In this document: one piece after another, positions 115-30,395 of the stretch | Numbering within the stretch: the stretch's first letter is position 1 | Layout of the letters: every line of letters starts with the position of its first letter | From: Hyphomonadaceae bacterium | GTDB lineage: Bacteria; Pseudomonadota; Alphaproteobacteria; Caulobacterales; Aquidulcibacteraceae | NCBI GenBank assembly: GCA_019753105.1 | Contig: JAIELJ010000006.1 | Span: 372,001-436,000, forward strand | Length of the DNA: 64,000 nt | Direction of reading: 5' to 3' | The notes under the pieces: model-generated | The model's input: only the letters and a program-made list of their open reading frames with translations | What the model was told of the DNA's origin: nothing | Database searches by the model: none | Position numbers and translations under genes: made by a program

Positions 115-1719
115 TTATAGTTGTCGCTTCAAATACGACTGATAGGCAGGAGACGCTTTCACAAAGTGGGCTCGACCATCGACGACAAAGCCATCCAACC
201 CCTGCTCCAACACGTACCTCGAAAGATCGCTCATTCTATTGATGAATCCGCGACCGTTGAAATTCAAAGAAGTGTTGCACAAAACGCCAAAGCCTGTGCG
301 CTCTCTGAAAACTTCCAGCAAGCCATACAGCGAGGGATTGCTCGTCTCTGACACGGTTTGAATACGCGCCGTACCGTTAATGTGCGTGACCGCTGGCAAC
401 GCATCAGTCTTGGCGTGGAACGTATATAACATGTGTTCGCTCGGACTGGCGCAACCAAACCAGCGCAGGGCATCTTCCTCCAAGCAAACAGGGGCGATCG
501 GCCGAAATTGTTCTCGTTGCTTGATCTCGTTGAGTCGCACACGAGTGGTCTCGTTAAACGGTGCTGCGAGAATAGACCGATTGCCCAATGCGCGCGGGCC
601 TATTTCGTATGCCCCACTGACCCAGCCAAGAATTAAGCCTCCCGCGATGGCGTTGGCCACCACATCGTTGCTCGGTCCGAAGACATCATACGGCGCCGGA
701 TCAAAACGGTCGGCGATGAACGCTCGCCCCGAGTATACGCTCCATTCGATCTTCGGCTCTCCAGTGAAATAGTTTTGTGCGTCGATTGCCGTGCCGATCG
801 CTGCACCGGAATCGTTTGCGACTGGTGGGACAAAAACTTCCGAGAAGAGGCCGCTGTCCCGCCACTTGGAATTCCAGTCACAGTTCAACCCGCACCCACC
901 CACGATGAGTAATGGGAGTCCGCGGTTAAGATGGGTTTTTGCAAACTTGTAGAAGACGTTGAATAACGCATCGCTGAAGATTCCTGCGAAATTCCGAAAC
1001 TCCGCGTCGTTGTGCCCCGCATCGTGGTACGGTGAGTTCTCTATGCCTTTGTAGGCGCTCCAACCTCTGTAGGGCCCATCCAAGAGAAAGCTCATTAGCT
1101 CCTTCTCGTGGGTTGAAGGTGTGCTTCGAGTTGAATACGACGCCAGCGCCATAAGCTTTCCTGCATCGGAAGACCGGGGGAAGGGACCGTTCTTCGGGAA
1201 GGTCGGGTCCGCCAAACCGTAAAGCACGCCATAGCGATTGCCCGGCGCCTCCAAGACGTCTGCTACCAGCGTTATGTTGAGATCGGCGTCGATCTCATAG
1301 AATGAGCCTAACTTACCTTCCCAGATGAGCGCATAGCATCGAGTCCTTTTGGGTAGGTTTGACATCCCGAAGGCACAGAGTAGGTGCGCGCGTTCGTGCG
1401 ACGATGAAAAATGGCGGACTGATTTGCCGAAAAGACGTCGCTCGCTAACGATGACGTCGTCGCTCGACACACCGCGGTAGCCAAAGTGTGCGTCGGAGCC
1501 ATTTAGAAACTCATAGTGATCTCGGGCCCACCAACCGGAAGTACACACCACATCTGGCACTTCTTCGACCTCACCGAGAACCGACAGTATCTCAGGAGCG
1601 TACAGAGGCGCATAGCGTACGTTAGAGTCCTTCTCCGCCTCGATTGAGAACTGTAACCGGCCGTCTTGAATGAATGCGATGGCACCGTCGTGACCTGGGT
1701 TCAGCGAAAGAATTTTCAT
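115..1719 (-). CDS. NodU/CmcH-family carbamoyltransferase
   Basis: Probably transfers a carbamoyl group from carbamoyl phosphate to a sugar or other hydroxyl in the cytoplasm. The family signature is clear: NPGHDGAIAF at residues 7-16, SSHERAH at about 106-112, GGCGLN at about 274, GPRALGNRSIL at 374-384 and CNTSLNFNGRGFI near the C-terminus. An open frame continues 56 codons upstream, but the family always begins with a short MxILxLNPGHDG strand, so the ATG at 1719 (534 residues) is chosen. It is divergent from two glycosyltransferase genes, which suggests a role in decorating a surface glycan. Base composition is less GC-rich than the core genes. Family certain, substrate unknown. Confidence 0.9.
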   Translation of the reverse strand: MKILSLNPGHDGAIAFIQDGRLQFSIEAEKDSNVRYAPLYAPEILSVLGEVEEVPDVVCTSGWWARDHYEFLNGSDAHFGYRGVSSDDVIVSERRLFGKSVRHFSSSHERAHLLCAFGMSNLPKRTRCYALIWEGKLGSFYEIDADLNITLVADVLEAPGNRYGVLYGLADPTFPKNGPFPRSSDAGKLMALASYSTRSTPSTHEKELMSFLLDGPYRGWSAYKGIENSPYHDAGHNDAEFRNFAGIFSDALFNVFYKFAKTHLNRGLPLLIVGGCGLNCDWNSKWRDSGLFSEVFVPPVANDSGAAIGTAIDAQNYFTGEPKIEWSVYSGRAFIADRFDPAPYDVFGPSNDVVANAIAGGLILGWVSGAYEIGPRALGNRSILAAPFNETTRVRLNEIKQREQFRPIAPVCLEEDALRWFGCASPSEHMLYTFHAKTDALPAVTHINGTARIQTVSETSNPSLYGLLEVFRERTGFGVLCNTSLNFNGRGFINRMSDLSRYVLEQGLDGFVVDGRAHFVKASPAYQSYLKRQL

Positions 1720-1962
1720 ATTTCTAACCTGGTGACGTCCGGGCTCGCAGTTGCACTTAGTTATGCAGCTGTCGACCGGCGCTCTTGCGTGGTGCAGTTT
1801 TACATCAAGGCAACCTGCGGTATAAAGCGGCATCGCGAGGAGAGGCACTGAGAAATCTGATCGCTCGCGGTCGAATGCGTCAGCCAACGTTGGTGGATTT
1901 CACTGCGACTACGAACCGACATACCTGCCGAAGATGCTCAGCGCTCGGAATTCATCCGACAG
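1720..1962. promoter_or_regulatory. Divergent intergenic region of the glycan cassette
   Basis: About 240 bases between the carbamoyltransferase start and the GT32-like gene on the other strand. It must carry promoters for both directions, but I could not assign a convincing -35/-10 pair or operator. Confidence 0.3.
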
Positions 1963-2733
1963 TTGGTACAAAAACCACCGCCTGAGCCCCCACGCGGTCA
2001 GCTGCGTGGCAGCGCGCCTCCACGGATAATCGTGCAGTTCTGGCACGATTTGCATCAATTGCCTGGCGACGTTCACGACTGTATTGCGTCATGGACTCGT
2101 TGGGAGAGAAGCGGATTCAGGCATGCGCTTTTCGACCAACATGCTGCCAAAAGCTTTATCTGCCGCTCATTAGGCGAGCGACACGTAGCGGCTTTTGAGC
2201 GGTGCTACCACCCGTCAATGCAGGCGGATTACTTCCGCCTTTGCTACCTGCATATCGAAGGTGGTCTCTACGTCGATGCCGACGATGTGTGCACCACCGA
2301 TGACATCAGCTGGTTGATGGAAGACGGGAGCCTAAAGCTCCAACCCCTGTGCTATGACACCGCGACTGAATCCATGGTGGAGCCCGCGAACTTCCTCCCC
2401 GCCTCTTCGGATCAAGCGGGCTGGATCTTCTACTTCAACAACAACCCGCTCATCGCCGCCCCCCATCATCCAGTTGTAGGGCGAGCGTTGGATCGAGCGA
2501 CCCGTCTGCTCGAGTTGGCTCGCGGAGACGATCTTCCTGAGATTCAATCCACCACCGGACCCGGTAATCTAACGCAGTCCATCTATGAACTCTCCAGAGA
2601 TGGGCTCGATCTTGGGGCGGAGCTGGTCGTACTGCGAGAGTGGGACAAGGTCGCAATTTCGCGATGGCCGTTGAGTTACCGCGATGACGCTAGAAACTGG
2701 CGGCACTCCAATCGGAAGAGATTCCCATTTTAG
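1963..2733 (+). CDS. GT32-like glycosyltransferase (DXD sugar-binding type)
   Basis: Predicted cytoplasmic glycosyltransferase of the Och1/capsular-polysaccharide type. The diagnostic block lies at residues 87-108: QADYFRLCYLHIEGGLY followed by VDADD, in which D105-A106-D107 is the metal- and nucleotide-sugar-binding DXD motif. The preceding IIVQFWHD (22-29) is the usual first strand of this fold. At 256 residues the length is normal. It is followed 16 bases later by the trimodular GT25/GH16 gene, so the two are probably co-transcribed for surface glycan synthesis. The first 15 residues are proline-rich and the exact start is uncertain. Donor and acceptor sugars cannot be inferred. Confidence 0.8.
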   Translation: MVQKPPPEPPRGQLRGSAPPRIIVQFWHDLHQLPGDVHDCIASWTRWERSGFRHALFDQHAAKSFICRSLGERHVAAFERCYHPSMQADYFRLCYLHIEGGLYVDADDVCTTDDISWLMEDGSLKLQPLCYDTATESMVEPANFLPASSDQAGWIFYFNNNPLIAAPHHPVVGRALDRATRLLELARGDDLPEIQSTTGPGNLTQSIYELSRDGLDLGAELVVLREWDKVAISRWPLSYRDDARNWRHSNRKRFPF

Positions 2734-2749
2734 ACACGGATGTTTCTGA

Positions 2750-4903
2750 GTGCATCTGCCGAAGCCGCTGAAATTCGCATCACGCCTAATACAGGCTGAG
2801 TATCTGCGTGTCCGTCGTTGTCTCCCGCCGCAACGTTGCGCAACGTTTGACACCGGCACGGGGTCATCCGGCGTAAGCTCAATCTACGTGATCAATCTAG
2901 ACCGACAACAGCGCCGCTGGGCTGACATGCTTCGTGAGCTGGGTTGCGTCTTGGACAAAAATGGAAGGCCACTGCCTGAACGCGTAGTCCGACACGCGGC
3001 GAGCGACGCTCAGGCTCATCCAAGCCGGCAGTTCAAAGTAGATGATGTCATCCCCACGTATAGACTCGCGGATCAACTCTTCGTTGAACCGCAGCCAAGC
3101 GTAATCCCCGGAACATTCGACCTCGAACACTCCATTGAGATGAGCGACGCGGAAATCGCGGTAGCAACCTCCCACATCAGCGTGTGGAGGTCGATCGCCA
3201 ACTCCGCGCATTCGTACAGTTTAGTACTGGAGGATGATGTTTGGTTTCAGCGCGACTTCGGGCAGGTTTTCGACCAAGCGTGGCGCGAAATGGAGTTGGC
3301 GGACCGATGCCCCCCTCGGTTCGACATTCTGTACGTTTCGTTCGTCGAGGTGCGGCACGGCGCTCCAAAAGAGCGGCTTTCCGATACGGTGTTTCGGCCC
3401 GAGCGTGGTCTGTGGTGTTTGGCGGGCTACGTCTTGTCGAGGAATGGCGCGCAAAGGCTACTCGATCTTCTTCCCTGCCGTGGTCCCATCGACCTCTGGC
3501 TCAATCACAAGTTTGCGCACTTGGACGTGAGGGCCGTAAGCCGCTCGGTGATCAATCAGCGTCGCGACCTGCACTCCACCAACTCATATTCGATTTTGCC
3601 GGCACTGACGCGGATGGGTGTCCTTGATTACGGCGACGCCGCCTTGTTTCACCGACGCCTCACGCATACGCCCGTGTTCGCCTTCGGCGCGCCAGGATCA
3701 GGTTTGACCTCCCTCGCCATGGCGCTATCGATGCTGGGCTATCGATGCTGCAGCGACTTCGACAATCTGCCTGAGAGCGAGCTCAACAACCTTCTTGCGC
3801 GCGGCAGGAACCGCGTCTTCGACGCCTACGTCAACATAGGGGTAGTTGAGGCGCAGATAGACGCAATCGCGCGGCGCTACCCGGATGCTAAGTACATAGT
3901 CACGGGGCACCAGAGTGAGGCGCTGCAATCGGTGTTGGCGAAAAGTGATGTTCTTCAGTTGCGGGCCGACCAGCCTGTTACGTGGAAAGAACTTTGCGGA
4001 CACCTGTCGCTTGCTCCGCCCAACTCGCCATATCCCACGGTGTTGGATCTAGGGCAGCGGGTGCACCGTGTCGCGTCTCCGCCCATAAGCGCTCCAGCAA
4101 GGTGGCTCAGGCGCGATCCATCTCCTTGGATAGCGAAGTCTCCCGCCTGGAATGGCATTGCGGGCAGCGCGCTCGCACCAGAACAAGGCCGGAGTTCATT
4201 GCAGTCGAAGTTTATCGACGATTTTTCTCGTCTCGACACCAATCGCTGGTTTCCACGGAACGATACATTCCCAGGGAATTTGGCCCTGTTTCAGCCGGGG
4301 AATTTGGCGCCGGCACCAAAAGGCGGCTTATCACTAGTCGTCAAACAGCAGTCACTTGGCGTCCGGAATTTCAGCGCCGCCGCGCTTTCTAGTCGAACAC
4401 AGTTTCTATTCGGACGCTTTGAGGCGACGTTCCAAGCCACCAGATTGCCCGGTCTGGTGACGGGCTTCTTCCTTCACCGAAACTCCCCCCGACAAGAGAT
4501 CGACGTGGAAATACGAGGAAACCAGCCTAACCGTCTTCTCGCGAACGTTTTCTATAATCCAGGATCAGACGGAGACCGGTTCGACTACGGGTACCGAGGA
4601 ACGCCCGTAAGTATTGAGTTGAACTTCGATGCATCGAAAGCCCCACATCGATACGCGATCGAATGGGAAGAATCCGAAATCCGCTGGTTCGTTGACGACA
4701 ATCTCGTGCACCGCCGGACGACTTGGGGGCCCACTCCGATCCCTCATTTGCCCATGACGTTGCATGTGAACACATGGCCTACGAATTCTCGCGAACTCGC
4801 GGGCAAGCTGTCGGTTCAAGGCCTTCCGGCGTTGGCGAAACTAACGCAGATTTCGGTTGACGCGTACTGCGTTGGAAACTTGGCCACGTCATGCCGCCAT
4901 TGA
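2750..4903 (+). CDS. Trimodular GT25 glycosyltransferase - sulfotransferase-like - GH16 protein
   Basis: A 717-residue fusion with three recognisable parts. Residues 44-285 are a GT25 (LPS-type) glycosyltransferase: SIYVINLDR at 44-52 and the acidic LVLEDDVWF at 159-166. Residues about 308-440 look like a P-loop sulfotransferase: AFGAPGSGLTSLAMAL at 311-326 as the PAPS-binding loop and WKELCGHLSL plus PYP at 412-429 as the usual C-terminal segment. Residues 488-705 are a GH16 domain with the catalytic motif EIDVE at 583-587 and the WFVDD strand at 646-650. It has a GTG start and no signal peptide, odd for a GH16 enzyme. It may act as a transglycosylase or glycan-binding module rather than an exported hydrolase. 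Domain calls are strong for GT25 and GH16, moderate for the middle part. Confidence 0.85.
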   Translation: MHLPKPLKFASRLIQAEYLRVRRCLPPQRCATFDTGTGSSGVSSIYVINLDRQQRRWADMLRELGCVLDKNGRPLPERVVRHAASDAQAHPSRQFKVDDVIPTYRLADQLFVEPQPSVIPGTFDLEHSIEMSDAEIAVATSHISVWRSIANSAHSYSLVLEDDVWFQRDFGQVFDQAWREMELADRCPPRFDILYVSFVEVRHGAPKERLSDTVFRPERGLWCLAGYVLSRNGAQRLLDLLPCRGPIDLWLNHKFAHLDVRAVSRSVINQRRDLHSTNSYSILPALTRMGVLDYGDAALFHRRLTHTPVFAFGAPGSGLTSLAMALSMLGYRCCSDFDNLPESELNNLLARGRNRVFDAYVNIGVVEAQIDAIARRYPDAKYIVTGHQSEALQSVLAKSDVLQLRADQPVTWKELCGHLSLAPPNSPYPTVLDLGQRVHRVASPPISAPARWLRRDPSPWIAKSPAWNGIAGSALAPEQGRSSLQSKFIDDFSRLDTNRWFPRNDTFPGNLALFQPGNLAPAPKGGLSLVVKQQSLGVRNFSAAALSSRTQFLFGRFEATFQATRLPGLVTGFFLHRNSPRQEIDVEIRGNQPNRLLANVFYNPGSDGDRFDYGYRGTPVSIELNFDASKAPHRYAIEWEESEIRWFVDDNLVHRRTTWGPTPIPHLPMTLHVNTWPTNSRELAGKLSVQGLPALAKLTQISVDAYCVGNLATSCRH

Positions 4904-5067
4904 AATCCGATAAGTCGGGTCTCGACACTAGACCCGACGTCTCTTCCTGCCCGGGTCACACGTGGGCGTGGCCGCTCCATTCACAGAGGAGAACTCATCG
5001 CGCGTCTGCATTCGTCGAAGCTCGCCTCGCTGCTCGCATCTACAATTGCCCCGGCGCGGAAGCCCGC

Positions 5068-5433: not shown

Positions 5434-5892
5434 ATGGGTTCGCCTCACCAATCCTTCTCGCGGCGCACAGTTCTGGCTGGATCGTGCGTACTTCCTTTGG
5501 AGATAGATGCGGCTGCTCTTGCCGACCCAAGTGTCGCGGCATGCGATACTTGGCTAGCGCGGCACGCTGAACAGCAACGCCTCGGCCGTAACTGGCAGGA
5601 GATCGAGCACCGCGCTTTCGCCGAACTCAACTGGCCGAAGCTCAATCGCACCCAGCGTGCTCGCCACCGCGAGCAGTTGGAGATGGACGGGCTCTATGAC
5701 GAAATGGACGCGTTGCATGAGCAGAACCAAGCTCTACTCACGTCATTGCCGAGCATCGTTGCGACCACGCACCTGGGAATCTGCGGCAAGCTTGCGGTCG
5801 CGGCGATCGAAGCCTGCCCCGAAGATCATCCCGAACTGCACCACCTGATCGCAAGCATATTGCGCGACTATCGCGCTTTCCATGGAGCGTGA
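5434..5892 (+). CDS. Unknown protein with Tat-like signal, paralogue A
   Basis: I do not recognise a family. The 152-residue product starts with a twin-arginine-like leader (SFSRRTVLAGS, residues 7-17), suggesting export in a folded state, although the hydrophobic stretch is short. The rest is mostly helical and charged, ending in LHHLIASILRDYRAF. The gene at 6147-6608 has the same design (SRRK leader, same length, same C-terminal pattern), so the two look like diverged paralogues. It has a plausible ribosome site (CGGAG) upstream and is followed by two genes spaced +3 and -1, so it heads a three-gene operon. Confidence 0.6.
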   Translation: MGSPHQSFSRRTVLAGSCVLPLEIDAAALADPSVAACDTWLARHAEQQRLGRNWQEIEHRAFAELNWPKLNRTQRARHREQLEMDGLYDEMDALHEQNQALLTSLPSIVATTHLGICGKLAVAAIEACPEDHPELHHLIASILRDYRAFHGA

Positions 5893-5895
5893 GCC

Positions 5896-6147
5896 ATGGA
5901 TTTGGGCTCGCTCGTCGGCAGCGTCATCTTGCTCGGCTTCATCGCCTTGGTGCTGCAACTGCTGTGGCGATTATTGCTGGGCATCTTGGTGTTCGGCCCT
6001 CCTTCTTATGGCGGCGTGATCATCGGCCATTTCGTGGGCGTTCAGTCCGGCAGCGCTTGGCTTGGGTTTCTGTCCGCGATTGCGGCGGCGGGCCTGCTTG
6101 GTGATCTGGTTCGCGCCTCACTGCGCGCTCTGCGGAGTGTGGACTGA
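5896..6147 (+). CDS. Small membrane protein, unknown
   Basis: An 83-residue product with a strongly hydrophobic N-terminal segment (VILLGFIALVLQLLWRLLLG, residues 10-29) and a second one around residues 38-70 rich in Gly and Ala; probably two or three membrane helices. Its start follows the previous stop by three bases and its TGA shares one base with the ATG of the next gene (TGATG), so translation of the three genes is likely coupled. It may anchor or export its two Tat-like neighbours. No family recognised. Confidence 0.6.
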   Translation: MDLGSLVGSVILLGFIALVLQLLWRLLLGILVFGPPSYGGVIIGHFVGVQSGSAWLGFLSAIAAAGLLGDLVRASLRALRSVD

Positions 6148-6608
6148 TGGCGCGCCTGTCTCGCCGCAAGCTGGTCGCCGGCATGAGCGTCGCGCCGTGG
6201 CTCTCCGACGTAAGACTGACGCGCGCGATGGCCGGCGATCCGGTGCTGGTCTTGTGCGGCCACTATGCCGACCTCGTGCGGCACGGTGAAATTTTGCTGC
6301 GGCGCTGGTCCGACCACGAAGCGTGGCTCGGCAAGAATCGAAATTGGTTCGGCCTAAGCGATGTCGAACAGAAGCGTCTTCCAGAAGCGCAGCTGCTCTA
6401 CGCCATCGACGCGGAGTACGAGCGATGCACGCGCGAGTGTGCGCGCGTGTTGCGCCGTGTGCGGAACGTGCCGGCTGTGACGGTCGAGGGCGCGATCGCC
6501 AAGCTCAGCATTGCGGCGGAATCGATTGAGCCAGACGACTATCCGAGCGCGCACCGCGTCCTACTCAGCGCCATCGGCGATCTGCGCGCTCTCCAGCGTC
6601 GCGGCTAG
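6147..6608 (+). CDS. Unknown protein with Tat-like signal, paralogue B
   Basis: A 153-residue product beginning MARLSRRKLVAGMSVAP, a twin-arginine-like leader, followed by a helical, Arg- and Glu-rich body with WLGKNRNWFGLS at about 59-70 and a C-terminal LSAIGDLRAL. The matching length, leader and ending indicate a paralogue of the gene at 5434-5892. It overlaps the stop of the small membrane-protein gene by one base. Function unknown; the arrangement paralogue-membrane protein-paralogue suggests one complex. Confidence 0.6.
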   Translation: MARLSRRKLVAGMSVAPWLSDVRLTRAMAGDPVLVLCGHYADLVRHGEILLRRWSDHEAWLGKNRNWFGLSDVEQKRLPEAQLLYAIDAEYERCTRECARVLRRVRNVPAVTVEGAIAKLSIAAESIEPDDYPSAHRVLLSAIGDLRALQRRG

Positions 6609-7899: not shown

Positions 7900-9123
7900 A
7901 TGAACCCTAAAGCGATCTCGTTGTTTTCTGGCGTAGGAGGGCTGGATTTCGGCTTCGAAGCGGCAGGTTTTGAGACGCGCGTTGCGCTTGATCTTGATCC
8001 GGTCGCCTGCGCAACGATACGGCGCAACAGGACCTGGCCAGTGATTGAAGGTGATCTCGCCACCATCGAGAGTTCCACGATCCTCAAAGCCGGCAAGCTG
8101 AAACGCGGTGAAGCGGACGTGCTATTTGGCGGCCCACCCTGTCAGCCTTTCTCCAAGTCCGGCTATTGGGCGACGGGCGATGCAAAACGCCTAACTGATC
8201 CCCGAGCCGGCACGCTCAAACACTTCCTCCGTGTCCTGGGCGAAACCCAGCCCAAAACGTTTCTCCTTGAAAACGTTCCGGGCTTCGCCTTCTCGGGAAA
8301 GAACGAAGGCCTGCATTTCATCCGACGCGGCATCGAGCACATAAACACGAAGACTGGTGCGAACTACTCACTCCATATCGGCATGCTGAACGCAGCGGAC
8401 TTTGGCGTTCCGCAGACGCGCGAGCGTGTCGTGATGGTCGGCGCGCGAGATGGTCGAGCATTCCATTTCCCCTCACCCACGCACGCGCCGCGTGGTCAGC
8501 GCCTACTGGACCTTCCGCAGTACCGCACCGCTTGGGATGCACTGGGCGATCTTCCAGAGCCGATCGATGATCCGAGTCTTGCGATGACCGGCAAGTGGGC
8601 CGACCTCTTGGCCACCATCCCTGAAGGTGAAAACTATCTTTGGCACACGGCGCGCGGGGGCGGCATCCCGTTGTTCGGCTGGCGCACTCGCTTTTGGAAC
8701 TTCATGCTGAAGCTGGCGAAGGATCAGCCTTCGTGGACAATCCAGGCGCAATGCGGCCCAGCCACCGGGCCTTTCCATTGGCGTAACCGCAAACTCTCCG
8801 CCGCCGAGCTTGCGCGGCTTCAGACGCTCCCTGACTGGCTCATGTTCAATTGCGCGCGCGGCGAAATTCAGCGCCTCATCGGCAACGCAGTGCCATCGTT
8901 GTTGGCTGAAGTGCTCGCACGCGAGATCAAAGTACAATTGCTGGGTGCGCGGCGCTCGCACGCGCACTTGAAACTTATACCGCCGGACCGCGGCACTCCA
9001 CCTCCGCCAACAAGGCCCGCAAAGCTGCCCGCGAAATACAGGGCAATCGCGGGCGTGCACAAAGAGCACCCCGGCCCCGGCAAAGGCCCCGGCGCGAAAG
9101 CTCGTTCGCGTCAGGCCGCTTAG
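7900..9123 (+). CDS. DNA (cytosine-5-)-methyltransferase
   Basis: Methylates C5 of cytosine in a specific DNA sequence using S-adenosylmethionine. The ordered motifs are present: I (LFSGVGGLDFGFEAAGF, 8-24), IV with the catalytic Cys81 in GGPPCQPFSKSG (77-88), VI (FLLENV, 121-126), VIII (PQTRERVVMVGAR, 171-183) and X (RLIGNAVPS near 325). The 407-residue length is normal; the last 55 residues are basic and proline-rich. RBS-like AGAGGACAAGG precedes the ATG. It converges on the druE-like gene with a 27-base gap. It may protect the host from the neighbouring defence system, as the methylase of Druantia type II is thought to, or be an orphan enzyme. No cognate restriction nuclease is seen. Confidence 0.92.
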   Translation: MNPKAISLFSGVGGLDFGFEAAGFETRVALDLDPVACATIRRNRTWPVIEGDLATIESSTILKAGKLKRGEADVLFGGPPCQPFSKSGYWATGDAKRLTDPRAGTLKHFLRVLGETQPKTFLLENVPGFAFSGKNEGLHFIRRGIEHINTKTGANYSLHIGMLNAADFGVPQTRERVVMVGARDGRAFHFPSPTHAPRGQRLLDLPQYRTAWDALGDLPEPIDDPSLAMTGKWADLLATIPEGENYLWHTARGGGIPLFGWRTRFWNFMLKLAKDQPSWTIQAQCGPATGPFHWRNRKLSAAELARLQTLPDWLMFNCARGEIQRLIGNAVPSLLAEVLAREIKVQLLGARRSHAHLKLIPPDRGTPPPPTRPAKLPAKYRAIAGVHKEHPGPGKGPGAKARSRQAA

Positions 9124-9150: not shown

Positions 9151-12100
9151 TCACGGGTTAGGCAGCGCAATCAGAGGCACAAGCCGATCCGGCCTACGTT
9201 CAATCGACCAAAGATCGATGAAGTGGATGTCCTGGGCACCGTGCGCACGCGCGGCATCGTAGGCGGCTTGCTGGGCCTCCACCCAGAATGCGGGGTCTGC
9301 GAGCCAGAGCGGATGGGTGAGCAGGATCGCTGCTCGTTTGCGCGGTGCGTAAATCTCCACGATAGGAGCTTCTCGCACTTCGAGTTCCAAGCCGCGGCTC
9401 GCAAAGCTGCGGACAAACGCTCGCGCTGTAGCGTCGGCACCTCGAATCCAACGCTCGGGCGCAAGCGCACTGCCACTCGCGATATCCACGAGATCGACAC
9501 CCAGGCGCCAATCCAGCTGGGAATGCAGCAGGCGATTGTCGTAGCTGCGCAAACAATCAGGACACGAGGCGTCGCAACGGGCGGCGTGCGCTTCAAACTG
9601 AGGCACGCGCTGACTGCGGATGCGCTCAATGACGCGCGCCATCACATCTCGGCTGGCGAGGTGGGCGGCATAGCCTGCCCCATTTTCAAGCGCGTCTGAG
9701 AGGAAGAGCCCGCGGGTAAGCGTGCCACCGACTCGGACGGGTTGGACGCCTGATTGAAGTTCACGAGATTCAACGTCGAGTTCATCGCCCGCGCCTATGC
9801 GCAGAAGTTCGAGGAACGACCAGAGCGCTGAGGGCCCTGCTGGACAATTTTCGACATCAACAACGCCGTCGCGACCCGGCAAGTTTTGGCTGACCAGTTT
9901 GATGAGGACGACGTCGGTCGTCTTCACGCTGCCAATCGCTGCCATGGGTTCGGTGCCTTGCAGCGCGCCGGGCAGGCGCACGCCGATCTGATAGAGCGAA
10001 GGATCCCAAACACAGACGGATTGGTCCCCTTCGCGCGTCATCGGGTAGAGGAGGCCGTTATTGTCGTTGAGCACGACGACACGGCTTGCCGGGAGCGGTT
10101 GAAGCTGGAGCGCTCCGACTTCGATTTCGCCGCCGGTTGGTGGCATGAAGCCCAGTTGCGGCGGCGACAGGACGGGGCCTCGCTCGGCGTGGTCTTCGTA
10201 ATCGGCAGGCCGATAGATCGTTCGAAAACCGCGCGGCTGATACATGTCGAACGCGCGCGTCGGGTTTTGACAGGCAGGACAGGGGCTTCCCTCGCCTTGC
10301 TCTAGTTGGGTTGCTTCGCAGGCGGTGCAGCGAACGACGCGTCGCGATTGACCGAGCGGATCTACCGGTATGACTTGGCGTCCGGCGAACTCCCAAGCCG
10401 CAAACCCGACTGCTGTGTGGATCTGCTTATCCTTCAAAACCTCCGCGCCAGGGGCAAAACTCGAGATCGCCATCTCGAGAGCGCGGTCGCTGACTTTGGC
10501 GGCGTCATCATCGCGCATGCTGTTGGGGCGTCGTTCATACAGCGCGCGTACGCGTGTCGGAAATCCAAACATAGGCAAGCACCCGTCTGTCGCCAGGCGA
10601 AGGCTCAATTCCGTCTGGATGAGACTTGTGTCAGCGACGACGGCATCGATGCGCGCACAAAAATCTTGGCGTAGATAGCGTTCGAGTTCGTCGATGTCGG
10701 CATTACTGAGCCCGCAATAAGCGGTCAGCCCTTCGACGACCTCACGTACTTCGGGCTCGGACGCCAGCCAGTTTGAAATGTCAGGGCGATAGTTGGGCCA
10801 ATCGGCTGCAGTCCCGAACACGCCGTGCGTGCTCTCGCGCGTGCGTTGCGGGCGCTGGCGCGCGAGCGAAGCAAACGCCCGACGCAACGCCTCAGCCGCG
10901 ACAACGCGACGAACGATCTCAACTTGTTTGACGTCGAGATAAGGCTGCGGAGGCTGGTCGCCGGTCATGCGACGTGAATTGTTGAAGTAATAATCATCGT
11001 GCGTGCGGTCACGGCACATGGTCATGGCGTAGGAGTAGACCTGCCCCATCCGGCCTGCACGGCCGACGCGCTGCTGATAGTTGAACCGCTGCGGCGGCAT
11101 GTTGGCCATCACGACACTTTGCAGGCTGCCGATGTCGACGCCCACTTCCATCGTCGTGGTGACGCTCAAAACATCGAGCGGCATCGTCAGATGATTTTCC
11201 CGCGGCGCATCGAGAAGTGCGTCTTTGAAGAGGCGCTGGCGACGGCGTTGTTCTGCGAGGGGTTTAGTCTGGCCGGTCAGTTCAGCGACATTGAGGCGGT
11301 GCGGCGCTTTGCGCGACAACCAGCCATAATAGTCGTCGACGTCAGTTTCGCGTTCGATGGTCTCGAACTGGGTATGCAGGCAGTACTGATTGGTGCAGAC
11401 GCCAGCGCTCTCGTGCAGATGGATGCGCGCGCACTGGCGGCAGCGAAGCGCGGTTTGACGAGCGGGCGCGCGCAGTGTCAGCGCCAGCGACGCGGTCTGG
11501 TTGGTTCGAAGCTCCCAATTGGCGTCAATGATTTGGGCTTGGGTGAGCGCGTTGAAGAGATCGCTCAGCAGCGTCGAGTTCGCAACGCCCGTAGCGGTTG
11601 CAACGGCGTCGAGGTAGCGGCGAAGCTGGGTCGGCGGATTTGAATTGGCAAAGCCTGAGCCGCGCTGGGTTGGATCATCAGCGAATTTGCCGGCAAGGCC
11701 GATGATGCGGATGGCTGAGCAAACGAATTGCTCGCGCGCATTGGCTTGAAGCGGCAGCGCGCTGGCTATGTCGCGGGTTGGTGCGATATATGCAACCCCA
11801 AGCGACTCTAAATCGCGCCCGCCTTGATCGAAGATGAGGTCGGCCATTTGGTGGGCAAGTGAGAGCCGGCGTGAATTGGCGGCGGCTTCAGCGACTTCAG
11901 GGTTGAGCCTCGTCCATTCTCCATTGGGAGCTGTGTAGGCGCGCCACCACGGCTCGCCTCCTCCGATGCGTTGCACGGAAGGACGAGGCCCTGCTGGATT
12001 AACGCCTAGTCCGACGAGCGCGCGTTCAACGCGGTGGACGAGCTGGCCCCATTCGAGATCGCCCCCTGCTTGTTGGCGGGCTTCGAACTCAGCGATTAGC

Positions 12101-14511
12101 GCACGCTCTGCGTCCTCGGCAAAGCCGCGTGCATCAGCGCGGTAGGCGGCCCAAAGATCAGGATGCTCGCGCTTGGCGAGTTCGACGAGCGCTGCTTCAT
12201 CTTCGTTAAGCGGGAGATTTTGCGCGGCATCGCGCAAGAGGAACGGCAGCGGGCGGCGCTGTCGAGGCGCGGTCTCCCGCCGCATCAGCAAACGCACGAG
12301 GTCGCGGAAGTGATTGTATTCAAGACCGGCTGCAGCTTCTGCAGCGTCATCGCGGCTATCGGTGAAGACGATGGTCTTTGCTGCGCGCGCGCCGTCGCCC
12401 AAGGTCTCCACAAGCCGATCGGTCAAGCTTTGGCTGACCGCCCCCGTGCCGGTGGTGTGAGCACGAATGGGGGTGCGTACGGTGCCGGCAAAGAAGGTCG
12501 CAACATCGCGGTTGTAGCCCTTCTGGCCGCAATGGGGACATTGCTCGGGCAGGGCTGGAACGCGCTCTGTGCCGCCGGCTGGAGCGTGACGCACTTCCAT
12601 CATGGTGCCGGTGGGCTGATCGCGGCGCGCGGGACGAAGATGGCCCAAGAAAGGATCGAGCGTCGCGTTGATGAATTCAAACTCGGTTGAACGGCGCGCG
12701 CCGCGGGCGCGATGGGTCCACTGCCCGGCCGACGGCGCGGGCCGCGGCCAGTACCACATGTAATGGCCATAGCGGCGCTTGAACACGACTTGCATTTCGC
12801 GCGAGGGCACCATGCGGGGCCCTGCTCCCAGCCACCAGCCCTCCATTTGCGTTGCGTCTGGGTTGGCGGCGAAACCGCCGAGCGAAGGTTCGCCGCATTG
12901 ATAGCAATAGAGCAGTTCAAGCACGCGACCACCGCATTCGCAGCGTGTGCGTGGCGCTGAATAAAGACGCCCAATGCGGCGTTGCGTCGATCGATCGCCC
13001 GAGGCGATCTGATCACATTCTGGATTTGCGCAGGCCCAAAGGCCACGGATCATGCGAATGAAATGGTGGGCGCGGAAGCGTGGAGAAGTGTGACCTGTCT
13101 CCTGCATGCCGATGGCTTCAAGCGCATTCTCAAGCGCGCCCTCAACCGACTCGCCGCCAAACATGGTGGCGGCCACTTCGCTCAGGGGTTTGGGCCGGGC
13201 GTCGCCGGAATGACATGCGCTCGCAAATTGTTCGCTCAGGTCGAGCTCAAGTGCGGCCTGCGCTAAATCGGCGCCGGCGAGGCCAGCGACATGAGATGCG
13301 TCGATGCGACGACGCACCTGCGGTGGGCGCGGGTCGCCCGGAAAGATAGCAAAGCTATCGCCGCTAACGCCGAAGAACTCTTCGAGATAGGCACGCCCTG
13401 CTTCGCCATCCAAGCTGGCGCTGGTGGCAATACAGCGCAATTGTGGAGAGTCGGGCGCTATATTGAGCCGGCGCAAGAGGTTGCGGACGACGAGCGCAAC
13501 TTCGCTGCCTTGGGTGCCGCGATAGGAGTGAAGTTCGTCAACGACGAGGGTGAGTTCATTGTCGGGTGAGGCGTTCAGCCAATCGCGCGTCGCATCGAAG
13601 ATGGGTTCTTCGATGTCGCGCATCAGCATGACGTTGAGCATGGATAGGTTGGTGACGAGGATGTCGGGAGCGTGCGCCACCATATCCCAACGCGTCAGCA
13701 TTTCACCGCAGAGCGGATCTGAGAACTGAGCGATGATATCTGGGCGGATAGCGCTCAATTCGTCTTCGATGGCGCGCATTTCGCGGGCAACATCTTGAAC
13801 GGTGCTTTCGTCGAGCCGCGTTGGCATGTTTCCTGAGCCAAGCGTAACGCCGGTGTAGCGTCCGAAGAAGAAACGCGGGGCCCCTTGGCCGGCGCGCGCC
13901 GTTAGCAGCGCGCGCCGCAAACGCGTGACTTGATCTTCGACCAAAGCGTTGGTGGGATAGAGGACGAAGGCGCGCACGGCGGGACGGCGATCATTGCCGG
14001 CGGAGTTGCGAAGCGGCGTCCAGGGCGACCCGCTCGGGCCTCCTCGCCACCATGGATTAACCACCGACGGTTGGCGCCAGCCTTCAGCTTCGCGCAGCAA
14101 CCGCGCAAAGATAGGCAGCAAAAAGCATTCGGTTTTGCCTGAACCGGTGCCTGAGGTGACGACGACGTTTCGGGGGCCCTGCCCGCGCCCAAGGGAAGTT
14201 GCGAGAGCTTGGGCTTGGTGCGTGCGCAACTTAAAGTCACCGCCTGCGGTCGATTGAAAGATCAGCCGCCCTAATTGGTCGGCGACGGCTCTTGAGGTGC
14301 CGACGCTCTCGCAGACCTCGGCGAGAGTTTCGCCCTGCTGGTATGGGTAGAGCGCCTCGATCAACGGTTCTTGGAAGACGATGCCGGGTTGGCTGAGGAG
14401 CCTGCGCCGTTCATCCAGCATTAGTTCGTCGCGCAGCCAGAACGCGGTGTCGAAATAGCGGAGATACCCGTCTTGCAGCGCCCGTTGCAGAGACAATGGC
14501 GTGGCTGGCAT
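9151..14511 (-). CDS. druE: Large DUF1998 superfamily-2 helicase, DruE-like
   Basis: A 1786-residue helicase: Walker A GTGSGKT at 121-127, DEAH-type box DELH at 325-328, a C-terminal helicase domain with [15 protein letters not shown] and [12 protein letters not shown], several Cys4 zinc clusters (for example [23 protein letters not shown]...CPACQN) and a C-terminal DUF1998-type [14 protein letters not shown]. Size and architecture fit DruE, the hallmark of Druantia anti-phage systems; DISARM and Dpd helicases are alternatives but are usually shorter. The open frame extends 62 codons upstream, but the ATG at 14511 has a GGAGAAG ribosome site and follows the stop of the upstream gene by 19 bases, so it is preferred. 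Function in defence is inferred from family and neighbour. Confidence 0.8.
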
Positions 14512-14530
14512 CTTCACTTCTCCCCGACGC

Positions 14531-17500
14531 TCAGGCGTGCAGCTTGTTTTGGATGGAAATCGCCACTGCAAGTGGCACGTCGTCATACTGAATGAGGCCC
14601 GCGTCAGCGCGGTAGCGCGGGGCTTTGCCCGAGCACATGACGGCCACGCGTTCGTAGAAACCTGGCAGGTAGGCGCCGAGCGGCACCAGCAGCGCACTAT
14701 CTTGTTTTTGATACATGATCATGGAGAGCCGTTTCTGCGCTGCCGCCAGGTGCTTGATGAGATGGACGTCGCCGACGCGCATCATGTGGAGCATCGCATC
14801 TTCAGGGCTGCTATAGCCGTAGCGGAGCCCATGATGGCCGACGCGATAGGCACCTGGCGCATCGTGGTCAACGAAGCCCCATTTGCCTTCATCAAGATCG
14901 AAGGCTTCAACGCCATCGCTGCCCATGCGAAAGCTTGGCATCGCGCCCAACACCGCCGAGAGAACGGGCAAGCAGCTGATCAAGCGTGCGGAGAATTTGG
15001 ATGCCACGAGCAGCGGGCGCCCCAGTGGCGTTTCTGTTTCTGCAAGCAAGGAAAGAGCTTCGGGAGCGATCACAAAGGCGACGCGTTCAGGTCCGCCCGT
15101 CATTGGCTCATCAATCAAGCGACCATCAAGTTGAGCGACGCGGCCTCTAAGGCGAGCCACAAAGCTTTTTGAACGCGCGCCGGCCAGAACCCATGCCCCG
15201 TCGGCCGTCTCGACAAGACAAGATGGCGCGACGCGCCAGCCATGGACAGAGCCGTCACGAGGATCCACGTCGAAGTCGAGATGGCCAAGTGCTGAGAGCG
15301 TTCGGGCGGCTTGGGCGGGGAAGCCCTCCTCTTCGCTAACGGCGCCTGCGAGCGTGCGAAAGCGTTCGTACGAGCCGGAGGTCAAATAGGTTGCTGCATC
15401 GAGCAAGAGATCAAATGCTTCGCCTGGTGTTTCTGTGAGCCGGCGATAGCGCGGCACCTCGCTTAAGGCGCGCCGCACGCGTGCGCCGCGGCGTTGCCCG
15501 GTGAAGCGTTTGCGCACGCCGCGATTGCGGGTCCAATCTTGGCGGTGGCACGTTTCGCACTGTTGATGCTTCAAAGTGCGAAAATTATCGCCCGCACGGC
15601 CCTCTTCACAGATCCAGTGATGGTACCCGCGCACGGCGCACGATTGCACAAAGCGTTCCTGATCGACGCGCGTGGTGCGGACGTAAGGAGCGTCGCGTGC
15701 GCTTGGGCGCGCGAATATGATCATCTCGGGCCCGGTCAAAGCCGGCTGCCCAAGTTCTTGCGCGGCCAGTGGTTCGGACAGATCGCAGCCGGCGAGCGAG
15801 GCGCTACCAGGTGAGCAGGATTCGCTCGAGGCAAGGAGGCCCGCGCCGCCCGAGAGGTCAAAGCGGCGCTCTTTCACATCTCTGGCCCCGACGGGTCGCG
15901 GCGTGTCGGCGGTCCGAAGGCGCAGGCTTGCAGTTTCCGCCGTACCCATACCGCCAGTTTTCAGCGGGCGGCGCAGAACGATGTCGTGATCGCCTTCGCC
16001 GACTTTGCCTGTGAGATCGACGACGCCGCGGCCAACGAAATGACCGAGATGGCGGCCAATGCCATCGCGTCCGCGTTGATTGATGGCGAGATCAAAGGTG
16101 CCGTCTGTGTCGACGGCCGCGAGCAGTTCGGGCGGGCGCGCTGCGTGCCAGGCATTGCCGAGTTGGAGACCGCCCGAGAAGCTGATGATCGTGGCAGCGC
16201 CCGCGCTTAGGGGTTCGAGCTTAGGATTAGTCGCCTCATCGGCCGCCTTGACTATCATCACGTCGCAATAGGCACACCAGCCTGCGGGCAGATTGGTAAG
16301 TTCTGTGTCGGCGAATTTTCGCCAGCCTGGGCGCGCATGCTTGGCGAGGTGTCCTTCCACCAGCGGCGCGGCGGAGGCGTGCGCGAGCACGAGGTTTTGC
16401 TTGAACAATTGTGCGCGCGGAATCTCGTGGAATTGGTTGCGCCCTTCCTCAGCTTCCAAAACGATGATTGGCGTCGGGGACTTGCGATAGAGCCGGGCAC
16501 TGTCGGATGCACTCACCAGCTCAATCACCCCCGAAAACAGACTGGTCACCCCGATTTCTGGCCAGGGCTCAAGGCTTGCCCAGCGCATGCCCGGCAGGCG
16601 TTCGAGCCTTAGGCGGTCGAGACACCCGGCCACCGACGCGCGACCCGCGTCATCGGTCAGTGCGCTGACGCGATATGCGCCTACGGCAAGCTCTGGATCA
16701 GTTCGCGCCACTAAGAAGAGATCGAGCCGCGGCGTCGGCGCGTAGGCCAAGTCAGCGATCCAATCCAATTTGAGCGCGCGCGAACCGCCGTCAAGGCGCG
16801 AGCCTGGCGCTCCATATGCGCCGTGCCCGGTCCAATGGCTGAGTTCAGCGCAGGCGATTTCCGCAATTCGCCGGCGTGCGGTTTGGTCGGTGAACCAGAG
16901 CCGACGCAAGTTGGCTGACATGTTGTTTGCGCTGTCACCAAACCAATCGGCTAAGTGCACCGTCATTTCCGCCGCGCTCATGACCCGCATGGGCTGCAAT
17001 TGATAATGTTCAAAGGCCGCGTGAAGGCCGCGCCGATCTTGTTCGCGCACCAGCGCCTGCGAGAGTGGATAGCCGATATAGCGACGCCGATCATGCGCGC
17101 GCGCCGTGGGCCAACCGCGTTCGCCTTGCCAGTCTTCGAGCCAATCATTGAGTGATTGCCAGAAGGCGATTGTCTCAGGGAAAGCGTCTTTCAGCTGATC
17201 AGTTTCAGTCTCGTTTAGGCCGAGCAAATTGGCGAGGCGGTCATAATAGTTGTGCGCTGCGTGCTCGGCGTCAGCGACCATGCTCTCAGCTGCAAGCGTG
17301 AGGCAAACGAGCAGCGCCAGAGATGGCGGCGCACCGACCTTTCCCTCGGCTATCCATTGCGCTGTGGCGGCCCGCCAATAGCCCCAAAGTTCGCTGGGGG
17401 AGCGCCAGCGCATAACTGCGGAGATGGTCTTTCCGAACGCTGCTCGCGGGTTTTCGCTGACACCCACTTTCGCCGCGACCGCTGCGAAGCGCTCCGGTTC

Positions 17501-17614
17501 AAGGTAGACATAGAGCGGTATGTTGGCGGCCGCCTCGCTGAACAATTCATCAGCAATCGCCGCACGCCAAGCTTTCTCGTTGGTTCCGTGCGCCAAACCG
17601 CCCTGATCGCCCAA
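14531..17614 (-). CDS. druH: DruH-like defence protein, partner of the helicase
   Basis: A 1027-residue protein without a fold I can name with certainty. Visible features are a Cys/His zinc-like cluster about two-thirds along ([15 protein letters not shown] followed by CETCHRQDW) and a mixed alpha/beta C-terminal third ([20 protein letters not shown]). Size, position directly upstream of a DruE-like helicase, and order druH-druE match Druantia type III. Start is TTG at 17614 with GAGAGAG upstream; no better ATG is nearby. Transcription runs away from the adjacent tRNA-Gly. The role of DruH is not established, so only the context supports the name. Confidence 0.6.
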
Positions 17615-17863: not shown

Positions 17864-17938
17864 TGGAGCGGGCGATGAGATTCGAACTCACGACCCCAAC
17901 CTTGGCAAGGTTGTGCTCTACCCCTGAGCTACGCCCGC
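17864..17938 (-). tRNA. tRNA-Gly (anticodon GCC)
   Basis: The minus strand reads GCGGGCGTAGCTCAGGGG... with a D arm, an anticodon stem and loop around TTGCCAA (anticodon GCC), T arm GTGAG TTCGAAT CTCAT, acceptor GCGGGCG pairing with CGCCCGC, discriminator T and an encoded CCA end at 17864. All arms pair well. Its 3' end faces the Druantia-like region, the usual orientation for an island inserted at a tRNA gene. Confidence 0.97.
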
Positions 17939-18851: not shown

Positions 18852-19607
18852 CTATTCCCCGTCTTCTGCCTTACGCGGCGCTTTCAAACGCCTGCGATTG
18901 ATGTGGCCATCCGGCGCGACATGGCCCTCGGGCGTGCGGCCGCGGAAATAATCGCGCTGCCAGCCATTCTTCACGGCCTCCGCGTCATTGTCGCTGAGGC
19001 GCGTCAGGAAGTTGCTGCGGCTTGCGCCCCACGCATCGTATTGGCGCTTCAGTTCGGGATCGTCATGGATCGATTTCACGATCGGTTGAATCTCGTCCAT
19101 CTTATCGTGAGGGATCGGAAAGATGAAGCAGAACGGCTCGCCCTTTTTGAACGAGATCATGCCGGGGCGCGTGAAGCGCCAGTTCATCGTGAAAGGAAAC
19201 GGCAGCCAGTAGGTTTCAACCACGCCGGCCAAAGGCTGAATGCCGTCCTTGATGTGATTGGGTGGGCCGCCGCACCACAAATCCCAGCCCGGTTCTGTGC
19301 GGAAGAGCCAGCCTGTGTGGAACGTCAGCACGCCGCCAGAAAAGTGCGACACAGCCCAACGATCGAGCAGCGCGCGCGGCGTGCCGTCATCGGGATCGAG
19401 GCGGATGTCTTCGACGCGCGGGCCGCCATTCCAGGTCGCGGTAAACGAGACCGGCGATTCCAGCGCCCAGCCCGTCGTGTTGGCGACAACGAGCGGCAAA
19501 CAGCGATAGGGATGGCGATCCGAAAAGCGGTCCATCCAGTCGCGGTCGGGCGAGCCCGGAACCAAGGGCGCGGGCTGGGGATCAACATTGTAGCAAGTCA
19601 ATTTCAT
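18852..19607 (-). CDS. DUF6065-like protein of unknown function
   Basis: A 251-residue soluble protein with aromatic-rich blocks (TGWLFRTEPGWDLWCGG at about 118-134, YWLPFPFTMNWRFTRPG at about 153-169) and a polar C-terminus. The pattern resembles the DUF6065 family, whose role is unknown; the assignment is from memory of the motif style. No signal peptide or membrane helix. It is the upstream partner of lepB, only 2 bases apart, and is divergent from the prolyl-tRNA editing gene. Confidence 0.6.
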   Translation of the reverse strand: MKLTCYNVDPQPAPLVPGSPDRDWMDRFSDRHPYRCLPLVVANTTGWALESPVSFTATWNGGPRVEDIRLDPDDGTPRALLDRWAVSHFSGGVLTFHTGWLFRTEPGWDLWCGGPPNHIKDGIQPLAGVVETYWLPFPFTMNWRFTRPGMISFKKGEPFCFIFPIPHDKMDEIQPIVKSIHDDPELKRQYDAWGASRSNFLTRLSDNDAEAVKNGWQRDYFRGRTPEGHVAPDGHINRRRLKAPRKAEDGE

Positions 19608-29906: not shown

Positions 29907-30395
29907 GAATGTCGTTTGTCCGAGGCGCGAACGCAGTACGCGATAGAACTCGGACGTGCTATCGCGGCGCGCTACACTCTCGTTCAGTTGCTGTGCCCGT
30001 TTTTGTCGGAGGGTGCTGTTGGCCTGCTTAGACGCCGCAGCATAACTATCGAGATCAATGCGTGATTGAAGATACGGCCACTTGATCAAATACTCTGGCA
30101 GCGGCGTCGAGTCGCCAGCGTAGGTGGCGATCGGTTGGTTCTTCTCCGTGGCAATTCCAATCTCCCACGGCACCCACCATGACTGCTTAGTACTCGCCGA
30201 AACAACAGCGAGAAGCTGGTCACACGCATCAAGTTGGGCTCGCACGTACTCACCAATCATCGGTCCGGTTCCAGCAACATGCGGGTCGATAACGTCGAGA
30301 TAGCATGCAATGCCGTGAACATCGCTAAGATGCCCGGCGACACTCTTCGCAAGCACAGAATCTGCCTGCTGATGAGAGATGAAGACTCGTAGCAT
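29904..30395 (-). CDS. TIR-domain protein (second TIR of the operon)
   Basis: A 163-residue protein starting MLRVFISHQQADSVLAK, the classic first strand and helix of TIR domains. ACYLDVIDP (about 30-38) is the second block, and the putative NAD-cleaving glutamate is Glu78 in WEIGIATEKNQP. The C-terminal 50 residues are helical and charged. ATG at 30395 shares its A with the TAA of the caspase-like gene (TAATG overlap), so a longer 192-residue frame is unlikely. It may be an NADase or a second-messenger synthase. Belongs to the operon with the caspase and a different TIR gene. Confidence 0.85.
   Translation of the reverse strand: MLRVFISHQQADSVLAKSVAGHLSDVHGIACYLDVIDPHVAGTGPMIGEYVRAQLDACDQLLAVVSASTKQSWWVPWEIGIATEKNQPIATYAGDSTPLPEYLIKWPYLQSRIDLDSYAAASKQANSTLRQKRAQQLNESVARRDSTSEFYRVLRSRLGQTTF

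Follow-up and report, generated by a model that had tools for sequence, protein, structure and literature searches.

Why should a glycosyltransferase and a glycan hydrolase be joined in one protein that appears to stay inside the cell? The question is raised by a gene at positions 2750-4903 of a 64,000-nucleotide stretch of DNA from a Hyphomonadaceae bacterium (order Caulobacterales; contig JAIELJ010000006.1, positions 372,001 to 436,000), which is referred to here as the window. An earlier note, made from the letters alone, had described the gene as a fusion of GT25, sulfotransferase-like and GH16 parts that may make a sulfated, branched surface glycan. We found that the fusion is the core of a two- or three-gene mobile cassette (GT32 - fusion - carbamoyltransferase) within a defence island, a membership that the earlier note had missed. 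The cassette is undescribed, widely scattered and mobile, with a strong defence-island signature. We put a probability of about 0.5 on the reading that it is a mobile, defence-type system directed at phages or further mobile elements, which would work by building, trimming and carbamoylating a short glycan. Within the accessible portion of the open-access literature (subscription papers and bioRxiv aside), no paper on the fusion or the cassette was recognised, and a text search of PMC12629846 gave zero occurrences of glycosyltransferase, carbamoyltransferase or glycosyl hydrolase.

The cassette and its partner genes

The cassette genes of the window are organized as follows:

115-1719, minus strand: NodU/TobZ-type O-carbamoyltransferase, divergent from the glycosyltransferase gene (PF16861, 1.7e-52; PF02543, 8.1e-21)
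1963-2733, plus strand: GT32-type DXD glycosyltransferase (PF04488, 2e-5), with its real start probably 5' of 1963
2750-4903, plus strand: GT25 - sulfotransferase-like - GH16 fusion gene (717 amino acids, GTG start, frame open throughout)
4909-4943, no strand: hairpin directly 3' of the fusion stop codon (inverted repeat, 14-nt arms, 86% complementary), a possible terminator

Searched as a single protein against genome contigs, the fusion gave no relative. A search with a seven-row alignment (the window copy and six plasmid sequences) found 138 stretches that encode one, of which 80 were kept; counts of loci refer to these. The GT32-type gene stands directly upstream of the fusion gene and on the same strand in 73 of the 80 loci. 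With gene starts as placed by a simple caller, the most frequent spacing between the two is an overlap of 4 nt, seen in 21 loci. The remaining seven comprise three loci with no room for this gene and four that lack it (L099, L102, L104 and L106); the fusion match itself is incomplete in L102 and L104. In the window, the glycosyltransferase frame extends 5' of its first ATG, GTG or TTG codon (window 1897-1963) and contains the conserved RSEFIRQLVQ in frame there; probably either translation begins at a non-standard codon or the start was called wrongly.

The carbamoyltransferase gene is present in 46 of the 80 loci, 40 times downstream of the fusion and six times divergently upstream, which is the arrangement of the window; contig ends leave 11 loci undecidable. 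Profile matches identify TobZ and GdmN as its nearest solved kin. Of 21 aligned relatives, 20 share 60-67% identity with the window copy and one shares 43%. The HExxH and GPRALGNRS motifs are conserved across the 22 rows (with one variant, GPRALGHRSL), while the NodU equivalog cut-off is not reached (242 of 1000 bits). Eleven genomes whose cassette lacks this gene were searched for a copy elsewhere: six gave no match and five a match, with 38% identity at best. Since some lineages are without the carbamoyltransferase, the gene content suggests that carbamoylation is an add-on and that the GT32-fusion pair forms the core.

Clustering of 897 flanking open reading frames (ORFs) of 88 loci revealed no general fourth cassette gene. 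Nine clusters, named by their longest member, occur in at least three of the 88 loci: integrase (11 loci, the widest), sensor histidine kinase (8), helicase-nuclease (5), resolvase (5), two IS21 genes (4 and 4), OLD-like protein (3), HsdM (3) and TrwC relaxase (3). Among these clusters there is no flippase, polymerase or sugar-nucleotide gene, no hydroxylating or hydroxymethylating enzyme, and no transporter or further biosynthetic gene.

These flanks bear on the idea that the glycosyltransferases and the carbamoyltransferase decorate DNA or RNA, either the cell's own or that of an invader. PMC8670742 describes a carbamoyltransferase, likened there to TobZ, whose substrate is 5-hydroxymethylcytosine in DNA and RNA; this precedent of a kindred enzyme leaves room for a nucleic-acid acceptor, and the defence-island context would fit it as well. 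However, no hydroxylating or hydroxymethylating enzyme is found among the recurrent neighbours and the GH16 domain would have no obvious role, and we consider this alternative very unlikely.

Domain organization of the fusion protein

The domains and motifs of the fusion were delineated as follows:

2804-3571, plus strand: GT25 domain (residues 19-274; PF01755; COLGALT1 structural match)
3230-3238, plus strand: EDD of GT25, acidic metal-binding motif (residues 161-163; invariant in 74 of 74 rows)
3674-4069, plus strand: shortened sulfotransferase-like P-loop domain (residues 309-440; PF17784; SgdX2 fold match)
3686-3709, plus strand: phosphate-loop-like motif GAPGSGLT (residues 313-320)
4199-4867, plus strand: GH16 domain (residues 484-706; PF00722; lichenase structural match)
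4496-4510, plus strand: GH16 catalytic motif EIDVE (residues 583-587; E583, D585 and E587 invariant in 74 of 74 rows, a count biased by the search pattern)

The three-domain, single-protein fusion read from the letters was borne out by Pfam, with all three families over their gathering cut-offs within one open ORF of 717 amino acids. PF01755 covers residues 44-241 (E 4.1e-15, 56.6 bits against a cut-off of 24) and PF00722 covers residues 533-682 (E 5.3e-27, 94.8 bits against 22). The AlphaFold2 model of the fusion, built with 74 sequences, has a predicted local distance difference test (pLDDT) score of 86.8 and a predicted template modelling (pTM) score of 0.74. Its GT25 part matches human COLGALT1 (9evj; Z 21.7, 3.3 A, 214 residues), and its GH16 part, a jelly-roll fold, matches the lichenase 3i4i (Z 28.1, 1.6 A, 207 residues) and lichenases overall with Z 27-28 at 1.6-2.0 A. 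NCBIfam matches of the fusion stay below cut-off (BglS, 86 of 300 bits; ExoK, 62 of 350 bits, 6e-17).

The 74-row alignment consists of the window copy and 73 full-length genome loci. Seven loci were left out (L029, L088, L089, L093, L098, L102 and L104), five of them incomplete, with L029 and L088 near full length on short contigs. Both catalytic motifs lie at the residues given by the earlier note. The genome loci behind the alignment were retrieved by GH16 patterns, which biases the EIDxE count there, and the conservation count of EDD in GT25 is therefore unbiased. In relatives found without GH16 patterns, EIDxE is present in nine out of nine, namely six of six from plasmids (tblastn) and three of three full-length viral-contig copies (GT25 patterns); a fourth viral-contig copy ends before this position and is not counted.

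The same fusion reads as one ORF over its full length in 73 further genome loci and in seven plasmid loci. This rules out a sequencing error joining separate genes, which had been named as a possible refutation. The annotations of cassette genes that we read in the records say only ‘family 16 glycosylhydrolase’, glycosyltransferase or carbamoyltransferase. In Rhizorhabdus wittichii plasmid pSWIT02 (L021:13998-16223), only the GH16 half is annotated (Swit_4988), yet the whole fusion frame is open.

A Kyte-Doolittle scan (19-residue mean) of the 74 fusion rows revealed no clear membrane-spanning or signal-like stretch. Over the first 70 residues the highest mean is 1.53 (median 0.62), and a mean above 1.6 is reached anywhere in the fusion by a single row of the 74, at 1.62. 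This agrees with the absence of a signal peptide noted before, and the fusion protein looks cytoplasmic. A mean above 1.6 occurs in none of 46 GT32-type glycosyltransferases and none of 22 carbamoyltransferases either, and the cassette proteins show no clear membrane segment. The GH16 domain may act as a transglycosylase, as had been suggested from the sequence.

The middle domain and sulfation

A domain search returned both the GH16 and the sulfotransferase match, the latter by Pfam and by a profile match to structures in the PDB. The match to Sulfotransfer_4 (PF17784) is partial, its best stretch being residues 309-386 (5.6e-6, 26.8 bits against a cut-off of 22.8), and the sequence profile of the middle domain matches PDB sulfotransferases with a best E of 7.2e-6. 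Folded alone (pLDDT 89.8), the domain is nearest to SgdX2 (8y9p; Z 10.0, 3.6 A, 128 residues) and then to Cpz8 (9kf2; Z 9.6), with adenylate kinases next after the sulfotransferases at Z of about 8; Foldseek gave no match at E 0.001.

The GAPGSGLT motif is present, although at residues 313-320 and not at 314-321 as first reported. Of the 74 rows, 61 retain the loop under the loose pattern G-x4-[GS]-x-[ST]-[ST], and none has the strict Walker A motif with its lysine. The loop is lost in three of the seven rows of the smaller alignment. The Arg-Asp motif of sulfotransferases serves the 3'-phosphate side; the Arg-Asp/Glu motif of solved enzymes, sought with one regular expression after the conserved strand, occurs in 0 of 74 rows. 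In the profile alignment, about 55-60 core residues of 5tiz and 9kf1 are missing, the gap lying after the strand YPxAKFI and before the C-terminal WxxLC segment of the solved enzymes, and a complete sulfotransferase core with an acceptor region was not found.

We rejected an active sulfotransferase on the missing Arg-Asp/Glu motif and the missing core residues. A sulfated, branched glycan made by such a domain, the model of the earlier note, could draw on the Sulfotransfer_4 match and on the sulfotransferase-like fold; with the motif and part of the core missing and the P-loop lost in some rows, we regard it as highly improbable. Given the lack of the Arg-Asp/Glu motif and of a strict Walker A, together with the loop losses, the middle domain is probably a shortened, non-sulfating relic or a nucleotide-binding module.

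Distribution and mobile carriers

Full-length single ORFs were obtained from 73 of the 80 loci, which carry 19 phylum labels, many of them those of submitter-named bins that may reflect contamination. The fusion is found at about 40-63% identity in Pseudomonadota, Bacteroidota, Streptomyces, Chloroflexota and a candidate phylum. Its occurrence is sporadic: within the order of the window it was found in its own genome alone among 299, in a phylum sample in two of 398 genomes (own included), and in E. coli in four of 5426 genomes, two with the same strain name. A search of the class with the GT32-type glycosyltransferase alone found it in two of 385 genomes, the window's own and one more, where the fusion adjoins it. 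On a quick tree of the 74 rows (five long rows flagged), the phylum label needs 28 changes, against a minimum of 18 and a shuffled mean of 37.2. Close pairs are also formed by isolates from different genera and families, Haliea alexandrii and Cupriavidus respiraculi being one example. From the scattered labels and these close pairs among distant isolates, we read frequent horizontal transfer of the cassette. Two bins, a Methylomirabilota (L059) and a Burkholderiaceae (L090), have nearly identical cassettes, pointing to a very recent transfer or a mis-binned contig.

In nine plasmid records, 80% or more of the query is matched, with identities of 37-52%; with these and the 138 genome stretches, the recurrence of the fusion goes far beyond chance. 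The loci of seven of the nine records were taken. The cassette resides on plasmids typed as conjugative in Rhizorhabdus, Citrobacter, Klebsiella and Sphingobium and on plasmids typed as non-mobilizable in Aliarcobacter and Rhizobium. Annotated plasmid neighbours include Abi, Shedu, Lit, DUF262, RES/Xre and multiubiquitin/ThiF genes. In three of the four E. coli carriers (those inspected, L109-L111), the cassette lies in a chromosomal stretch with type IV secretion system and MobC genes and adjoining ABC-3C genes, which we read as an integrative conjugative element. ArdC, UbiX/UbiD and hchA are also found around the cassette in these stretches.

The fusion has no match in 50,697 phage records, and a single-sequence search of IMG/VR gave none. 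An alignment search of IMG/VR, in contrast, yielded four viral contigs with the cassette, one of which breaks off within the fusion; one cassette lies beside terminase and portal genes and another beside a terminase gene. Seven further viral hits (L142-L148) were set aside, as their match is confined to residues 39-312. Viral contig L139 encodes terminase, portal and DNA methyltransferase genes and then the cassette, which stands one gene past the portal gene, an order that we read as that of a P2-like prophage. According to PMC9122126, the defence hotspot of P2 is located between gpA and the portal gene gpQ; our comparison covers the portal side, with the gpA side outside the stretch.

Among partial plasmid hits, the one in Shinella is a GH16 gene in an exopolysaccharide operon that matches the GH16 part of the fusion, and the one in Indioceanicola falls in a record that carries no annotation there. 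The Shinella gene is one argument for modification of the envelope: the cytoplasmic enzymes would alter a precursor, either lipid-linked or one of lipopolysaccharide, teichoic acid or exopolysaccharide, and thereby block phages or conjugation in the manner of lysogenic conversion, or merely change the surface. GT25, GT32 and ExoK-type GH16 enzymes commonly serve the envelope or exopolysaccharides, the ExoK match of the fusion (below its cut-off) points the same way, and carriage by phages and plasmids fits seroconversion. On the other hand, the recurrent flanking clusters contain no flippase, polymerase or sugar-nucleotide gene, the aligned cassette proteins are without clear membrane segments, and the fusion occurs across phyla that share no obvious envelope glycan. 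The surface glycan of the earlier note is not supported by these clusters, nor by hosts with very different envelopes. An envelope role is possible, if on the unlikely side.

The island in the host genome

In the window's own genome, the cassette is placed between a gene for a SIR2-Argonaute protein on one side and Druantia genes on the other:

Contig 368720-371965 (L134:14720-17965), minus strand: SIR2 + Argonaute protein, 1081 amino acids (PADLOC pAgo, E 0), directly before the carbamoyltransferase gene and left of the window
7900-9123, plus strand: cytosine methyltransferase, DruM-like (PADLOC MTase_II, 4.7e-77; DruM2, 7.9e-69)
9151-14697, minus strand: Druantia DruE2 helicase (PADLOC DruE2, E 0)
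14531-17614, minus strand: Druantia DruF2 (PADLOC DruF2, 1.8e-145)
17864-17908, no strand: attachment (att) repeat, 45 bp of the tRNA-Gly 3' end, with an exact copy 30.5 kb upstream (contig 359341-359385) beside a tyrosine integrase gene

The island spans contig positions 359341-389908 (30,568 bp) and is flanked by the exact 45-bp repeats of the tRNA-Gly(GCC) 3' end. The tyrosine integrase is encoded just inside the far copy, and the tRNA-Gly(GCC) end of the island lies at window 17864-17938. Among the matches listed, 12 of 29 congeners have two or more copies of the repeat, and the tRNA-Gly site thus looks like an integration hotspot. An empty-site comparison found no empty site in these 29 congeners, in which the left flank of the island, the repeat aside, has almost no match.

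Between the cassette and the Druantia genes, window 5434-5892 and 6147-6608 encode a pair of small proteins that are related to each other and have twin-arginine-like sequences at their starts (SRRTVLAG and SRRKLVAG), neither of which matches a Pfam family over its cut-off. Beside the island end, next to a signal peptidase, a DUF6065 protein is encoded at window 18852-19607 (minus strand), and outside the island a caspase (C14) protein at window 30395-31384 (minus strand; PADLOC caspase, 2.3e-16).

Defence genes among the neighbours

The two nearest ORFs of at least 120 amino acids on each side of the cassette were collected from 78 of the 80 loci, giving 272 proteins after four of over 1300 amino acids had been dropped. 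At E 1e-10, two sets of 136 of these neighbours match 226 and 256 PADLOC models, counts that overstate the number of genes because many redundant models exist per gene. A control of 136 random genes, drawn from 274 genes in twenty 16-kb stretches of six genomes, all from the window's order, matches six models, by one gene each. The neighbour models include GajA, GajB, Old, AriA, PtuA and a type III methylase, and any single listed model is matched by at most four of 136 neighbours. With Pfam, the two sets gave phage integrase (7 and 2), OLD-like TOPRIM (2 and 3) and AAA_15 (4 and 4), along with SIR2_2 (2), GmrSD (2) and SMODS (2). The cassette is thus enriched near known defence genes and on mobile elements, relative to a control unmatched for islands.

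The same neighbours speak to the proposal that mobile elements carry the cassette simply as cargo for biosynthesis or stress, making a small carbamoylated glycoside or a storage glycan with no role in defence. TobZ and GdmN, the nearest solved kin of the carbamoyltransferase, make natural products, and the E. coli and Klebsiella copies lie amid metabolic and detoxification cargo. However, far more defence models are matched by the neighbours than by random genes, and the recurrent neighbours include no transporter or further biosynthetic gene; we judge this explanation unlikely.

Several points weigh against a defence-type system. The cassette has no known phenotype, and GT25, GT32 and GH16 are commonly enzymes of envelope glycans. 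No PADLOC 2.0.0 model matches the fusion, the glycosyltransferase or the carbamoyltransferase at E 0.01. The PADLOC figures count models, inflated by redundancy, and not distinct neighbour genes, and the six same-order control genomes are unmatched for mobile islands while the test loci span many phyla. Next to the Klebsiella plasmid copy no defence gene is obvious, and some carriers hold non-defence cargo (UbiX/UbiD, hchA). Finally, 23 of the 80 loci lack the carbamoyltransferase even though their flanks are long on either side, and a sensor-kinase cluster recurs in 8 of the 88 loci.

Proposed mechanism and significance

For the defence-type system, we propose the following roles. The GT32-type enzyme would prime a short glycan on a cytoplasmic acceptor, and the GT25 domain would extend it. 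The GH16 domain, tethered to GT25, would trim the chain or transfer it en bloc, and the carbamoyltransferase, where encoded, would cap the glycan, with the shortened sulfotransferase fold serving as a scaffold or nucleotide-binding module. The resulting glyco-carbamoyl mark, or a released oligosaccharide, would interfere with the invading element. That the gene order is constant and the fusion permanent suggests a single chain as the substrate of both GT25 and GH16. The acceptor is probably in the cytoplasm, and the lack of a constant membrane partner together with the breadth of hosts argue for one that all bacteria have or that the invader brings in, and against one particular surface polymer.

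A bolder form of this proposal is a pan-bacterial cytoplasmic immune system in which infection triggers the synthesis of a short carbamoylated glycan that acts as a tag on a component of phage or host or as a diffusible oligosaccharide signal, and in which GH16 releases, transfers or erases it, writer and eraser being one protein. This form is speculative, and we hold it to be unlikely.

If the cassette protects its hosts, bacterial immunity would have a branch based on glycans, its target common to very different bacteria, and the existence of cytoplasmic GH16 enzymes would be explained. If it alters surfaces instead, it would be a cassette for surface modification that transfers very widely, with plasmids, prophages and an integrative element as its carriers. 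In both cases, the fusion and its partner genes form a unit that can be named and tested as such.

Comparison with known systems

The fusion shares with the GT25 family (COLGALT1) the fold (Z 21.7) and the acidic EDD motif. Bacterial members of this family include lipooligosaccharide galactosyltransferases. The fusion differs in its additional P-loop and GH16 domains, in the lack of a clear membrane or signal segment, and in its location outside lipopolysaccharide operons in the loci read. With the lichenase/ExoK-type beta-glucanases of GH16 it has the fold and the EIDxE catalytic motif in common, but it has no secretion signal, its GH16 domain is tethered to a glycosyltransferase, and it stays below the BglS and ExoK cut-offs of NCBIfam. 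The middle domain resembles Sulfotransfer_4 enzymes (SgdX2, Cpz8 and the schistosome enzyme) in fold and in the phosphate-loop-like motif (61 of 74 rows), whereas part of the core and the Arg-Asp/Glu motif are missing.

The cassette carbamoyltransferase has both Pfam domains and the conserved motifs of NodU, TobZ, GdmN and the 5-hydroxymethylcytosine carbamoyltransferase. Unlike NodU, TobZ and GdmN, it is a mobile and frequent partner (46 of 80 loci) of two glycosyltransferases, and unlike in the 5-hydroxymethylcytosine pathway, no hydroxymethylating enzyme is co-encoded among the recurrent flanking clusters. Clusters for seroconversion and superinfection exclusion of the gtr type consist of phage-carried glycosyltransferases, as the cassette does, but neither the cassette nor its recurrent flanking clusters contain a membrane flippase or lipid-linked glycosyltransferase.

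To our knowledge, no bacterial defence system pairs glycan synthesis with a tethered glycan hydrolase. While none of the three cassette proteins matches a PADLOC model at E 0.01, the cassette occurs in the same islands and hotspots as the known PADLOC defence systems and is, like them, sporadic and mobile.

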